DNA of 64,000 nt from positions 81,996 through 145,995 of the forward strand of contig JAFWDJ010000020.1 in assembly GCA_017513095.1 (NCBI GenBank), in the 5' to 3' direction. Under the pieces are notes generated by a model. The model searched no databases and was not told the DNA's origin. It saw only the letters and a list, made by a program, of their open reading frames with translations. Origin of the DNA: Clostridia bacterium (GTDB lineage Bacteria > Bacillota > Clostridia > Oscillospirales > RGIG577). Below are positions 8,649-58,142 of this stretch, piece by piece. Within the stretch, counting starts at the first letter, position 1; every line of letters begins with the position of its first letter. The position numbers and the translations under genes are program-made.

Positions 8649-9402
8649 TTAAGCTCAAAATAAGCTTCAGCGCCAAGTATTTAACCTATCTCCCCCCTAC
8701 CCACGCCTTCCCGTCCTGCTTCAACATTTATTTTTTTTAGAACTCCGTTCTAAAGACTTTTGCCTCCTGCCGGAGGGGCCTACTTTTGGAAACAAAAGTA
8801 GCAAAATTTCCGGGGGACCGCGGCACAGGCTCGCGGGGTTTGTGCTATATGCAATCTTCCTGCAGCGCTTAGGCCGCCTTCCCCCCGTCCCCTTTGATTT
8901 TGCGGCCTCGATATCATTCATCAACAGAAGATGACGCAATCAAAATCAGACGGGCGCACGATGCGCCCGACACGGCTTGGCCTATGGGGGGCTTTGTTTT
9001 GCAGAAAGCAGCTCTCAGCGGGCGCGAAGGCTTGTAGCGGCTCGGCCGCGGAATTTGATGACGCGCGAAGATATCTCGAATGATGCCTCATATCGAGGCA
9101 ACTATAAGTAATGGAGTAAATTGCGCCCTTGTTCGGAGGAGAAGCGTCGTAAAAACGCGAAGTAACGCCGAGCGGAGAGGCCCGCGCGAGCGTGGCCGGG
9201 AGCGAGGGAGCGGAGAGACGGAGAGGCGGCGAGTCTCTCAGAAATTTTGGTTCTTTTGTTTCCAAAAGAACCCCCGCGGGAGGCGACAAAAGTCTTTAGA
9301 ACGAAGTTCTAAAAAGAAATGAGTTGAAGCAGAATGCAAGCGCGAAAGTTAGAGGGAAGGCAGGTTAAAAACTTAGCGGTGATGCTTGTTTTGAGCTTTT
9401 AA
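8649..9402 (+). repeat. Long intergenic inverted-repeat element, copy A
   Basis: A non-coding element of about 750 bp. Outer arms begin TTAAGCTCAAAA and end TTTTGAGCTTTTAA. Inside are paired blocks GTTCTAAAGACTTTTG / AAAAGTCTTTAGAAC and the hairpins CTTTTGGAAACAAAAG and TTCTTTTGTTTCCAAAAGAA. The centre carries GGGCGCACGATGCGCCC. The same order occurs near 35564-36310 and, inverted, near 56930-57751. No conserved reading frame is convincing. Confidence 0.8.
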
Positions 9403-35120: not shown

Positions 35121-35530
35121 GCCTTCCCCTTCGAGGGGAAGGTGGCACGGCGCAAGCCGTGACGGATGAGGTGTTATTGCCTCCATCCCCGAGGGAGGTG
35201 GCAGCGCCAACGGCGCTGACGGAGGGAGTCGCCTCCCCTTCGCAGGGCATATCGGTTTACATAATTTCCTCCCCCTCGGGGGAAGGTGTCTGCGGGCAGA
35301 CGGATGAGGGGCAGCACCAACGGCGCATGCGTCCCTCGTCTTGGCTCCCTTGTGCAAAGGGAGCTGTCGGCGCAGCCGACTGAGGGATTGTCGCCCTCCC
35401 CAAAGCCTTCCCCTTCGAGGGGAAGGTGGCCGCCGTGCGGCCGGATGAGGTGCAGCGCCGCCCGGCGCGTGCGTTTTTATCGGCTCCCTTGTGCAAAGGG
35501 AGCTGTCTGCGAAGCAGACTGAGGGATTGT
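35121..35530 (+). repeat. Cluster of REP1 and REP2 palindromes
   Basis: Four REP2-like units (35121-35172, 35180-35227, 35268-35311, 35405-35450) and two intact REP1 units (35343-35391 and 35482-35530) stand side by side in mixed orientation. The motif GGTTTACATAA (35253) lies between them. No gene is supported here. Confidence 0.8.
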
Positions 35531-35563: not shown

Positions 35564-36310
35564 AAAATGCTTTGCCGCCAAGTTTTCAACCTATCTTCCC
35601 TTATATTCTAAGCTTTTTGTTCTGCTTATACATCTTTCTTTTTAGAGCTTCGCTCTAAAGACTCAAATCGCCTCCCGCGGGGGTACTTTTGGAAACAAAA
35701 GTACCAAAATTTCCGGGGGAAATCGGCTGAGGCTCGCAGGGCTTCTTCTAAATGCAAGCTCACATCAGCGCTTAGCGCCGATTTCCCCCCGTCCCCCTTT
35801 GATTTTATGGCCTCGATGTCATTCTTTATCGGTAGATGACACAATCAAAATCAGACGGGCGCACGATGCGCCCGACACGGCGCGGCCGATGGGGTTGCAT
35901 TGGCTTGCCGAAAGCGACTTTCAGCGGGCGCGGAGGCTTGGAGCGGCTCTGCCGCGGAATTTGATGACGCGCAAAGTTATCTCGAATGATGCTTCATGCC
36001 GAGGCAACTATAAGTATAAGCGTAAATTGCGCCTTTTTGTCGTGGGAGAAGGCGAAGGGTATTACGTAGTAACGCCGAGCGGAGAGGCCCGCGCGAGCGA
36101 GGCCGGGAGCGAGGGAGCGGAGAGACGGAGAGGCGGCGAGTCTCTCGGAAATTTTGGTTCTTTTGTTTCCAAAAGAACCCCCGCGGGAGGCGACAAAAGT
36201 CTTTAGAACGGAGTTCTGAAAAAGAATATATGTTAAGGCAGAATGCCATGTTGTAAGTAAGGCAAAAGATAGGTTAAAAACTGAGAAAAAGGCTTTCTAA
36301 TAAGGCTTAA
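35564..36310 (+). repeat. Long intergenic inverted-repeat element, copy B
   Basis: The same layout and orientation as copy A: outer TTAAGCTCAT / AAGGCTTAA ends, the AGACT..AAATC.CCTCCCGCGG block, the TACTTTTGGAAACAAAAGTA hairpin, the GGGCGCACGATGCGCCC core, and the right-hand TTCTTTTGTTTCCAAAAGAA hairpin followed by GTCTTTAGAACGGAGTTC. It has no small GC palindrome in either arm and so serves as an empty-site reference for copy C. Confidence 0.8.
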
Positions 36311-36333: not shown

Positions 36334-36382
36334 ACAATCCCTCAGTCAGCAGAGCTGACAGCTCCCTTTACACAAGGGAGCC
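36334..36382 (-). repeat. REP1 palindrome
   Basis: Reverse-oriented unit (ACAATCCCTCAGTCAGCAGA...GGGAGCC). Its ACAATCCCTCAGTCAGCAGA segment is identical to the sequence that encodes the end of the DUF559 protein at 53229. Confidence 0.8.
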
Positions 36383-53116: not shown

Positions 53117-53204
53117 TTATGCCACCTCGCTTGCATTATAAGTATATATTATCACGTTCGCCGCGCGAAATCCAGCTTTTCACATTATATTTATGCATAA
53201 AAAA

Positions 53205-53253
53205 GGCTCCCTTGTGTAAAGGGAGCTGTCAGCTCTGCTGACTGAGGGATTGT
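53205..53253 (+). repeat. REP1 copy at the 3' end of the DUF559 gene
   Basis: Intact REP1 (GGCTCCCTTGTGTAAAGGGAG...GAGGGATTGT). Its inner edge faces the DUF559 gene, and it encodes the last residues and stop of that gene. Confidence 0.85.
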
Positions 53254-53597
53254 TTAATCACATTATCAAGATACTCGCAAACCTCGCCAAAATTCTTATT
53301 TATCTCGTTGTTTGGAATACGAATAATTTTAAGTCCGTATTTTTTCAAATATTCATCGCGTTTTGTATCATATCTTTGCCCCGCCTCTTCATAATGCTGC
53401 GAACCGTCAAGCTCGATAATCAGTTTTGCCGAAGCGGAATAAAAATCGACTATATATTTTCCCAGCACCTTTTGACGAGAAAAACGAACGGGATAGTCTT
53501 TTAAAAATTTATACCATAAATTACGTTCTTCCTTCGTCATACTTTTGCGCAATTCTCGTGCATTTTGGACAAGGGATTTATTGTGCTTTCTGTCCAT
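53229..53597 (-). CDS. DUF559/very-short-patch-repair-like endonuclease fold protein between inverted REPs
   Basis: A 122-residue PD-(D/E)XK-fold protein. Family motifs are ARELRKSMTKEERNLWYKF, FSRQKVLGKYIVDFYSAS (catalytic Asp in VDFY), and LIIELDGSQHYEEAGQRYD (ELDGxxH with catalytic Glu and Asp), then RRDEYLKKYG-like and IRIPNNEI. It is A/T-rich for the window. The Shine-Dalgarno GGAGG (53607-53611) lies in the left inverted REP, 8 bases before the ATG. The last seven residues and stop (QSLSQQS-stop) are encoded by the right REP. Likely a small mobile cargo or repeat-associated nuclease; activity is unproven. Confidence 0.88.
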   Translation of the reverse strand: MDRKHNKSLVQNARELRKSMTKEERNLWYKFLKDYPVRFSRQKVLGKYIVDFYSASAKLIIELDGSQHYEEAGQRYDTKRDEYLKKYGLKIIRIPNNEINKNFGEVCEYLDNVIKQSLSQQS

Positions 53598-53600
53598 TTT

Positions 53601-53654
53601 ACAATCCCTCCGTCTGCCTTACGGCAGCCACCTCCCTTTACACAAGGGAGGTGG
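53601..53654 (-). repeat. REP1-like copy at the 5' end of the DUF559 gene
   Basis: Inverted relative to the copy at 53205: ACAATCCCTCCG...CCTCCCTTTACACAAGGGAGG. It supplies the ribosome binding site of the DUF559 gene. Confidence 0.8.
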
Positions 53655-53710
53655 TTTTGTTAGCGGATTTTATTATGATGAACACTCATGGCGGCTTTTT
53701 CCGCCTTGAC

Positions 53711-56696: not shown

Positions 56697-56925
56697 CCTC
56701 CCGGCGGGGGGAAGGTGTCTGCAGGCAGACGGATGAGGGGCAGCGCCAACGGCGCATGCGTCCCCCATAATGGCTCCCTTTGTGTAAAGGGAGCTGTCTG
56801 CGCAGCCGACCGAGGGATTGTCGTTCCCCCGTCCTTCGTAGGGAGGCGTCCCCAGACGCCTCCGCGTGTCTTAGCCGTGTTTTCACGGAGGCATGAAGGC
56901 ATGCCTCCCTACGGAAGCATTATTG
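56697..56925 (+). repeat. REP2, REP1 and a third palindrome
   Basis: REP2 (56699-56741), REP1 (56772-56821) and a further hairpin element with CGTAGGGAGGC / GCCTCCCTACG arms (56836-56920) stand in a row. Confidence 0.75.
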
Positions 56926-57088
56926 ATAACTCAATGCACAAAAATGCTTCACTTCCAAGTTTTTAACCTACCTTCCCCTATACTTACAGCCTCACATCCT
57001 GCTTTAACATAATTCTTTTTCAGAACTCCGTTCTAAAGACTTTTGTCGCCTCCCGCGGGGGTTCTTTTGGAAACAAAAGAACCAAAAT

Positions 57089-57131
57089 CCGGGGCCCCCG
57101 AAAAATACGCCCGCGGATTTTTTGGGGTGGT
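57089..57131 (+). repeat. Small GC palindrome (P45 family), copy 4
   Basis: CCGGGGCCCCCG, A5, TACGCCCGCGGA, T6, GGGGTGGT. It sits between ACCAAAAT and GAGAGACT of long element C. Confidence 0.75.
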
Positions 57132-57549
57132 ATTGAGAGAGACTGCCGCCTCTCGGACTCTTCGCTCCCTCGCTCCCGGCCTCGCGAGCGGGCCTCTCCG
57201 CTCGGCGTTACTTCGCAATAGCTTTTGCCTTCTCTCACGGCAAAAAGGCGCAATTTACTCTTAACTTATAGTTGCCTCGGCATGAGGCATCATTCGAGAT
57301 AACTTCGCGTCCAATCAAATTCCGCGGCCGAGCCGCTCCAAGTCTTTGGCTCCCGAAAGAAGTGACTTCGCCGGACGCGCCGTGTCGGGCGCATCGTGCG
57401 CCCGTCTGATTTTGATTGCGCTATCTTCCGATGATGAGTGACGTCGAGGCAGTAAAATCAAAGGGGACGGGGGGAAATCGGCGCTAAGCGCTGATGTGAG
57501 CTTGCATTTAGCACAATCCCCGCGAGCCTCAGCCGATTTCACCCTCAAT

Positions 57550-57591
57550 ACCACCCCAAAAAATCCGCAAGCGTATTTTTCGGGGCCCCGG
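57550..57591 (-). repeat. Small GC palindrome (P45 family), copy 5
   Basis: Inverted relative to copy 4 and nearly identical to it. It lies in the opposite arm of the same long element, before ATTTTGCTAC. Confidence 0.75.
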
Positions 57592-57765
57592 ATTTTGCTA
57601 CTTTTGTTTCCAAAAGTAGGCCCCTCCGGCAGGAGACAATAGTCTTTAGAACGGAGTTCTGAAAAAGAATGATGTTTAAGCAGAATGCGAAGGCATAAGT
57701 ATAGGGGAAGGTAGGTTAAAAACTTGAAAGTGAAGCGTTTTTTAAGCTTTTGGGACGCACCTCAT

Positions 57766-57808: not shown

Positions 57809-57838
57809 ATGTAAACCAAAAGCTTCTCCATCGGTCAA

Positions 57839-58142
57839 GCCGTGTCGGGCGCATCGTGCGCCCGTCTGATTCTGATTGCGCTATCTTCCGATGATGAGTG
57901 TTGTCGAGGGCGCCAAATCAAAGGGGGACGGGGGGAAATCGGCGCTAAGCGCTGATGTGAGCTTGCATTTAGCACAATCCCCGCGAGCCTCAGCCGATTT
58001 CCCCCGGAAATTTTGCTACTTTTGTTTCCAAAAGTAGGCCCCTCCGGCAGGAGACAATAGTCTTTAGAACGGAGTTCTGAAAAAGAATGATGTTTAAGCA
58101 GAATGCGAAGGCGTAAGTATAGGGAAAGATAGGTTAAATGTC
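57839..58142 (-). repeat. Truncated long element, copy D
   Basis: This repeats the half of copy C from the CGGGCGCATCGTGCGCCCG core to the outer arm (GATGTTTAAGCAGAATGCGAAGGC), and lacks the other half and the small GC palindrome. It lies directly beside copy C in the same orientation. Confidence 0.8.

Follow-up and report, generated by a model that had tools for sequence, protein, structure and literature searches.

Small enzyme genes with flanking REPs are known from the RAYT/REPIN system (TnpA-REP 'REPtrons'; GTAG REPs). In this system, a single small nuclease gene has REP flanks, inverted REP pairs (REPINs) are non-autonomous derivatives, copies are dispersed, and enzyme and repeat form cognate families. 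The DUF559 unit described here, from a 64,000-nucleotide stretch of Clostridia DNA (the window), is similar in all these respects, whereas its enzyme is different. RAYT is an HUH Y1 transposase (PF01797); the protein encoded between the window REPs belongs to PF04480 and has an unrelated fold of the PD-(D/E)XK/Vsr type. The GTAG at the hairpin foot of RAYT REPs is also absent from the window REPs, where GTGG or CTG precedes hairpin B. Unlike RAYT/REPIN, DUF559 units show long target duplications at some insertions.

CGTC REPs, one of two large REP superfamilies, 'apparently lack a dedicated transposase' (Di Nocera et al. 2013, PMC3733652). Their CGTC tag and CCA tail are matched by REP-b of the window (CGTCTGCC-TTAC-GGCAGCCA) and by L010, L011, and L131, and the Novosphingobium DUF559 unit has CGTCATTTGC-TGGC-GCAAATGCCA on either side. 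CGTC REPs also form dimers, as the REPs here do. However, the described CGTC stem is 8–9 bp (PMC3733652), compared with 5 bp in REP-b and typically 5–6 bp in the family, and many DUF559-flanking REPs, including REP-a, have no CGTC tag. Clostridia are not mentioned in the text of the CGTC paper (PMC3733652). Read from its tail, REP-b bears the CGTC...CCA signature with a shorter stem, and superfamily membership is not claimed.

EDxHD homing endonucleases (e.g. I-Bth0305I, PDB 3r3p) and Vsr have the same catalytic-domain fold as the DUF559 protein, and one cyanobacterial DUF559 gene has been placed in the EDxHD family (PMC9403480). Unlike these enzymes, the DUF559 protein consists of nothing but a catalytic domain of 122 aa and has no additional DNA-binding domains; unlike EDxHD homing endonuclease genes, its gene lies outside introns and is framed by its own terminal repeats. 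MITEs and their parent insertion sequences offer a further parallel, since MITEs are short non-autonomous copies with the two ends of the parent, as are the REPINs here; MITE parents encode a DDE transposase, which the gene of the DUF559 unit does not. Target duplications of insertion sequences are usually a few bp, and the 39–56 bp found here are far longer. No open-access paper was found that links DUF559 to REPs, and none mentioning DUF559 contains 'repetitive extragenic palindromic', most subscription papers and preprints being outside the search.

Repeat ends of the DUF559 unit in the window

The window (G000:C42:81996-145995) belongs to a host genome of 1.99 Mb. The whole unit covers ~450 bp (53205-53654) in the order REP-b, DUF559 gene, REP-a, with a NUDIX gene on one side and an FMN-reductase gene on the other. 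Its sole gene, DUF559 (PF04480; 53229-53597, minus strand), encodes a Vsr/EDxHD-like nuclease of 122 aa. The upstream end, REP-b (53601-53654, minus strand), and the downstream end, REP-a (53205-53253, minus strand), were delimited from sequence; each consists of two hairpins and then a conserved tail directed toward the gene. The inverted arms around the ORF lie at 53207-53233/53624-53650 (89%) and 53237-53258/53596-53617 (82%).

REP-b is made up of hairpin A CCTCCCTTGTGTAAAGGGAGG, hairpin B CTGCC-GTAA-GGCAG, and the tail CGGAGGGATTGT, which gives the Shine-Dalgarno; in the tail-first reading it is CGTC-stem-loop-stem-CCA. At the gene start, the minus strand reads ...GACGGAGGGATTGTAAAATGG, with GGAGG 9 nt before the ATG. 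REP-a contains hairpin A GGCTCCCTTGTGTAAAGGGAGC, hairpin B GTCAGC-TCT-GCTGAC, and the tail TGAGGGATTGT. On the minus strand the gene ends ATT AAA CAA TCC CTC AGT CAG CAG AGC TGA; its last codons are read inside REP-a, and repeat DNA thus supplies both the stop and the seven final residues (QSLSQQS). A free copy of REP-a at 36334-36382 (minus strand) is 100% identical over 49 bp, and three others on the plus strand reach 90% (35343-35391) and 88% (35482-35530 and 56772-56821). Approximately 60 matches to the window repeat are dispersed through the genome. The G+C content of the gene is 37%, against 55% for the whole window and 57–58% for the two neighbours; across 168 loci, DUF559 genes lie below their own flanks in 95%, with a median gap of 10 points. 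The original prediction had described a gene more A/T-rich than its surroundings, framed by inverted REPs of which the downstream one encodes the last seven residues and the stop, with the same bases free at 36334, and all of this is borne out. Its placing of GGAGG in the upstream repeat was also right; its spacing of 8 bases to the ATG was not.

Inverted similarity between the upstream and downstream flanks of a gene was scored, with a threshold of at least 30. Only three of 53 window ORFs attain a score of 30, and the other two sit in a different long repeat; among 916 control spans of the same size, taken from the same loci as the surveyed DUF559 genes, the threshold is reached in 0.9%. Chance is rejected for the window layout on these grounds.

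A separate dispersed repeat of 300–750 bp is also present in the window (35601-36286, with copies near 8713-9376, 56958-57685, and 57828-58103; arms ...CTTTTGTTTCCAAAAGTA...). Other REP families (CTTCCCC..GGGGAAG) adjoin it.

Distribution and polarity of the layout

Two further DUF559 genes of the same genome also lie between inverted REPs in the same orientation, giving three of three REP-framed genes with three different REP sequence families. Beyond this genome, a score of at least 30 is found at 68% of 28 top loci of the order, 65% of 40 lower-ranking loci of the order, and 74% of 78 genome contigs, as well as 57% of 14 plasmid/phage-record loci, mostly from other phyla. The layout also occurs in Deinococcus (L123, L124, L234), in Sphingomonas, Sphingobium, Novosphingobium, and Qipengyuania (L125, L129, L231, L230, L131, L232), in Sinorhizobium meliloti (L228), Azospirillum lipoferum (L227), and Pseudanabaena (L133), and in a faecal phage contig (L136).

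Not all DUF559 genes are REP-framed, since the layout was not found at L127, L128, L134, L135, L229, L233, and L235. The E. coli (L135), Photobacterium (L134), Neisseria (L233), and some Azospirillum loci are without the inverted pair and have at most one-sided or direct repeats. Within the order, no inverted pair was detected for about 30% to a third of DUF559 genes, and inverted-repeat flanks were found in none of 26 distant DUF559 subfamily members in a wider phylum sample. In the phylum sample, a DUF559-like domain also occurs within reading frames of ~1500 residues (L247, L248, L255, L262, and others), which form a different family branch without REPs. Most surveyed genomes are MAGs and are not phylogenetically independent, and the window genome's own genus and family, with three genomes only, have no power as a survey set.

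The two flanking REPs behave as distinct ends. In the REP family of the window, 37 genes have b upstream and a downstream, and none has the reverse; overall, the upstream REP is of type b in 50 of 56 genes with a typeable upstream REP. Judged by this polarity, the two REPs are distinct left and right ends of the element. The ATG lies 2 nt past GGATTG in 27 of 45 upstream REP-b copies, and the stop codon falls within the downstream REP in 46 of 60 cases, so the repeats generally carry the start signal and stop, beyond the window copy. Hairpin B sequence varies freely while its predicted pairing is kept: among 115 distinct cores with 61 different stem arms, at least 5 bp are paired in 83%, compared with 4% of shuffles. 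The original prediction that the repeats carry the expression signals thus applies generally. Its expectation that DUF559 genes usually lie between inverted REPs, which the contrary outcome would have refuted, also holds for the order (65–74%, against 0.9% of controls).

Movement of the unit and empty REP pairs

Near-identical DUF559 genes occur in unrelated surroundings. L049 and L050 (99.4% nucleotide identity) lie on two contigs of one MAG, L079 and L081 (97.2%) at unrelated sites of one MAG, and L042 and L043 (99.1%) likewise at unrelated sites. The 182 gene pairs with at least 82% identity mostly have unrelated flanks. In 173 pairs with at least 84% identity, shared sequence most commonly stops on the right at the outer end of the REP (within 10 bp in 54 pairs), the left limit being more variable. 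In some families the shared unit reaches past the REP, by ~35 bp in L042/L043 and ~150–200 bp upstream in the L072-L113 group. These copies establish, as far as comparison of sequences can, that the gene travels to unrelated sites together with its two REPs as a single unit, and that the unit is mobile is well supported.

Clean target duplications are found at two loci (four records). In two genomes of one genus (L027, L028), the unit lies between 39-bp direct repeats; the repeat is single in the congeners G064 and G029, which have neither gene nor REP at this site and so present a clean empty site. At L020/L052, a 56-bp duplication with one mismatch directly abuts the left REP, with a gap of 3 nt at the right REP. 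Read as target duplications, the repeats at these two cleanest insertions show that insertion can duplicate 39–56 bp of the target. A 56-bp repeat at L142 was excluded because it lies within an array of REP units, and L152, L165, L023, and L011 were excluded as repeat arrays. No target duplication was found at the window copy, and the window insertion is probably old.

Both congeners in the window genome's own genus lack DUF559. At the window locus (53120-53700), two congeners (L121, L122) carry a DUF4160 and DUF2442-HTH gene pair instead of the DUF559 unit, and one keeps a REP remnant at this position. At the locus of the third DUF559 gene, upstream of gyrB, congeners show a single REP or a remnant of one, without the gene. 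The search for empty-site flanks, made at several elements with intergenic flanks, was informative at the gyrB locus only. Together, the remnant at the window locus and the single REPs or remnants at the gyrB locus mean that empty and single-REP sites exist, as the original prediction had envisaged; the outcome that would have counted against it, a locus fixed in all relatives, is contradicted by the two congeners without DUF559 and by the clean empty site at L027/L028. In Sphingomonas, one REP-flanked DUF559 unit lies between sufB and sufC (L231), a position without such an insert in Azospirillum and others, and the pnt transhydrogenase operon contains a second (L129); both sit within core metabolic operons. 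Two further candidates were set aside: the insertion at L022, which many congeners lack, has decayed into a mosaic whose REP ends are not clear, and Sinorhizobium meliloti strains are uninformative as a presence/absence series, since an IS element dominates the flanks.

A pattern search of 394 genomes of the order revealed facing REP pairs at two spacings, ~100 bp (empty) and ~420 bp; several ~420-bp pairs were checked and contain DUF559. The 16 empty pairs that were read are REPINs, 15 of them at 113–124 bp (~118 bp), with facing a/b ends as in DUF559 units and an A/T-rich spacer of 20–25 nt. REPINs, so read, share the ends of the gene-bearing unit, and with a b end, a short spacer, and an a end they look like its non-autonomous derivatives. 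No convincing target duplications were found at the sampled REPINs.

Further repeats adjoin or extend some units. In L072, L079-L081, and L113, the shared mobile stretch starts sharply at CCTATAACTCGATTTTCTGTG, ~200 bp upstream of the gene and well outside the REP; the unit may be longer here, or a second repeat may be nested in it. L139, L146, L149, L153, and L160, from hosts of several families, have a palindrome in common (GCGCACTTCTATACACC..GGTGTA), a repeat of the left flank that lies immediately beyond the DUF559 unit. On pSymB of Sinorhizobium meliloti (L228), the DUF559 gene (1468-1872) lies between near-identical inverted repeats of ~114 bp, apparently a whole REPIN on each side. In E. 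coli (L135), a CCCTCTCCCTGAAAGGGCGAGGGGGC-type repeat occurs twice in direct orientation downstream of the DUF559 gene, and a long perfect palindrome lies upstream.

The nuclease and its proposed role

The window ORF (53597-53229) matches PF04480 with an E value of 1.6e-31 and 108.9 bits, against a curated cut-off of 20.6. The predicted structure (pLDDT 86) matches the uncharacterised 3hrl (Z 14.5), the homing endonuclease I-Bth0305I (3r3p; Z 12.5, rmsd 2.4 over 95) and Vsr (1cw0; Z 10.9, rmsd 2.0 over 100); the sequence relation to 3r3p has an E value of 8e-6. According to this model, the catalytic domain shares its fold with Vsr and the EDxHD enzyme I-Bth0305I. D51, E62, D64, H68, and D77 are invariant across 85 aligned sequences, by alignment only and without residue-by-residue superposition on EDxHD. 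Median dN/dS is ~0.08, which places the gene under purifying selection.

Repeat and nuclease also correspond across genomes. Across different host families, REP similarity correlates with nuclease similarity (Spearman 0.40; best of 1000 permutations 0.18), also when the gene-adjacent bases are trimmed (0.30; best permutation 0.12), and the three co-resident paralogues of the window genome have differing REPs. DUF559 is present in 75% of REP-rich genomes (at least four copies of the repeat core) and 25% of others (odds ratio 8.8, p 1e-9; genomes not independent). Y1_Tnp, of which the window genome holds one protein, is not significantly associated with REP-rich status (odds ratio 1.9, p 0.06); among REP-rich genomes, DUF559 occurs without Y1 in 11, and Y1 without DUF559 in two. 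DUF559 is lacking in 10 of 40 REP-rich genomes, which must hold relics, have a gene that the assembly missed, or have another mobiliser.

The locus is best read as a minimal REP-ended mobile element of ~450 bp that carries a Vsr/EDxHD-like nuclease and spawns MITE-like REPINs; in the absence of cleavage or transposition data, the probability of this reading is put at about three in four. The nuclease would recognise and bind its own REP hairpins and would nick or cut both these and the target, the nicks being staggered. Host repair or replication might then copy the unit, duplicating the stretch between the two staggered nicks. REPINs would arise through gene loss, and REPINs and single REPs may either persist as relics or be moved in trans. 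It remains an inference that the cutting is done by the nuclease, and that it mobilises REPs as the original prediction proposed; cognate matching, co-occurrence, and fold support the latter, and no activity has been shown.

The main rival is homing into existing REPINs. DUF559 would then be a free-standing EDxHD-type homing endonuclease gene whose enzyme cuts an empty REPIN between its REPs, so that recombination copies the gene in, while something else spreads the REPs. The nearest characterised structural relative is indeed a homing endonuclease, I-Bth0305I; the gene lies inside a REPIN with the same polarity as empty REPINs, relic REPs persist at orthologous sites of congeners, and homing would likewise yield cognate matching of REP and nuclease. 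It is nevertheless considered unlikely: at L027/L028, gene and REPs are all missing from the congeners, and the 39-bp duplication encloses the complete REP-gene-REP unit, although this evidence against homing is a single event. Moved units most often have their right boundary at the outer end of the REP, and REP abundance tracks DUF559 rather than Y1.

The co-occurrence data also bear on whether a RAYT, an IS200/IS605 (HUH Y1), or another transposase moves the REPs, with DUF559 as cargo caught between two of them. RAYT-linked REPs do exist in other bacteria (PMC3733652, PMC3116915), and a Y1_Tnp protein is present in the window genome. But REP-rich status is tied to DUF559 and not significantly to Y1_Tnp, REP sequence follows nuclease sequence, and the nuclease is under purifying selection, so that such hitchhiking is disfavoured and appears improbable. 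Least credible, to the point of being nearly dismissed, is a coincidence of niche, in which DUF559 would be a repair or defence gene of the ordinary kind that frequently comes to lie in intergenic DNA rich in REPs, the REPs there serving as terminators. Intergenic REPs are common, and Caulobacter VsrA, a DUF559 protein proposed as a mismatch-repair nuclease, has been assigned a Vsr-like role (PMC12907096). The a/b polarity is fixed, and the repeats contain the start and stop signals; these facts, the enrichment of 65–74% against 0.9%, the 0/26 result in other DUF559 subfamilies, and near-identical genes at unrelated sites all speak against it; the polarity and unit-movement data already contradict it.

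If the mobile-element reading is extended beyond this locus, DUF559 units may form a new class of tiny autonomous bacterial transposon (~450 bp), whose sole enzyme is a Vsr/EDxHD-type nuclease recognising cognate REP hairpins as ends. Such an element would make unusually long target duplications (39–56 bp seen), give rise to REPINs, and represent the mobiliser still missing for CGTC-type and related REPs in several phyla. The balance tips only slightly in favour of this wider proposal. In Clostridia, Alphaproteobacteria, Deinococcus, and Cyanobacteria alike, REPs flank a cognate nuclease in the same layout; this nuclease is a direct candidate for the missing transposase of CGTC REPs and brings the question within reach of a test. 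It could be the enzyme, long missing, to which some of the short palindromic repeats scattered through bacterial genomes owe their spread. If this is true, a non-HUH, non-DDE enzyme would join the movers of bacterial DNA, DUF559 proteins now labelled Vsr-like or 'endonuclease domain-containing' would gain a function, and a very small element would become available for the study of how hairpin repeats originate and spread.
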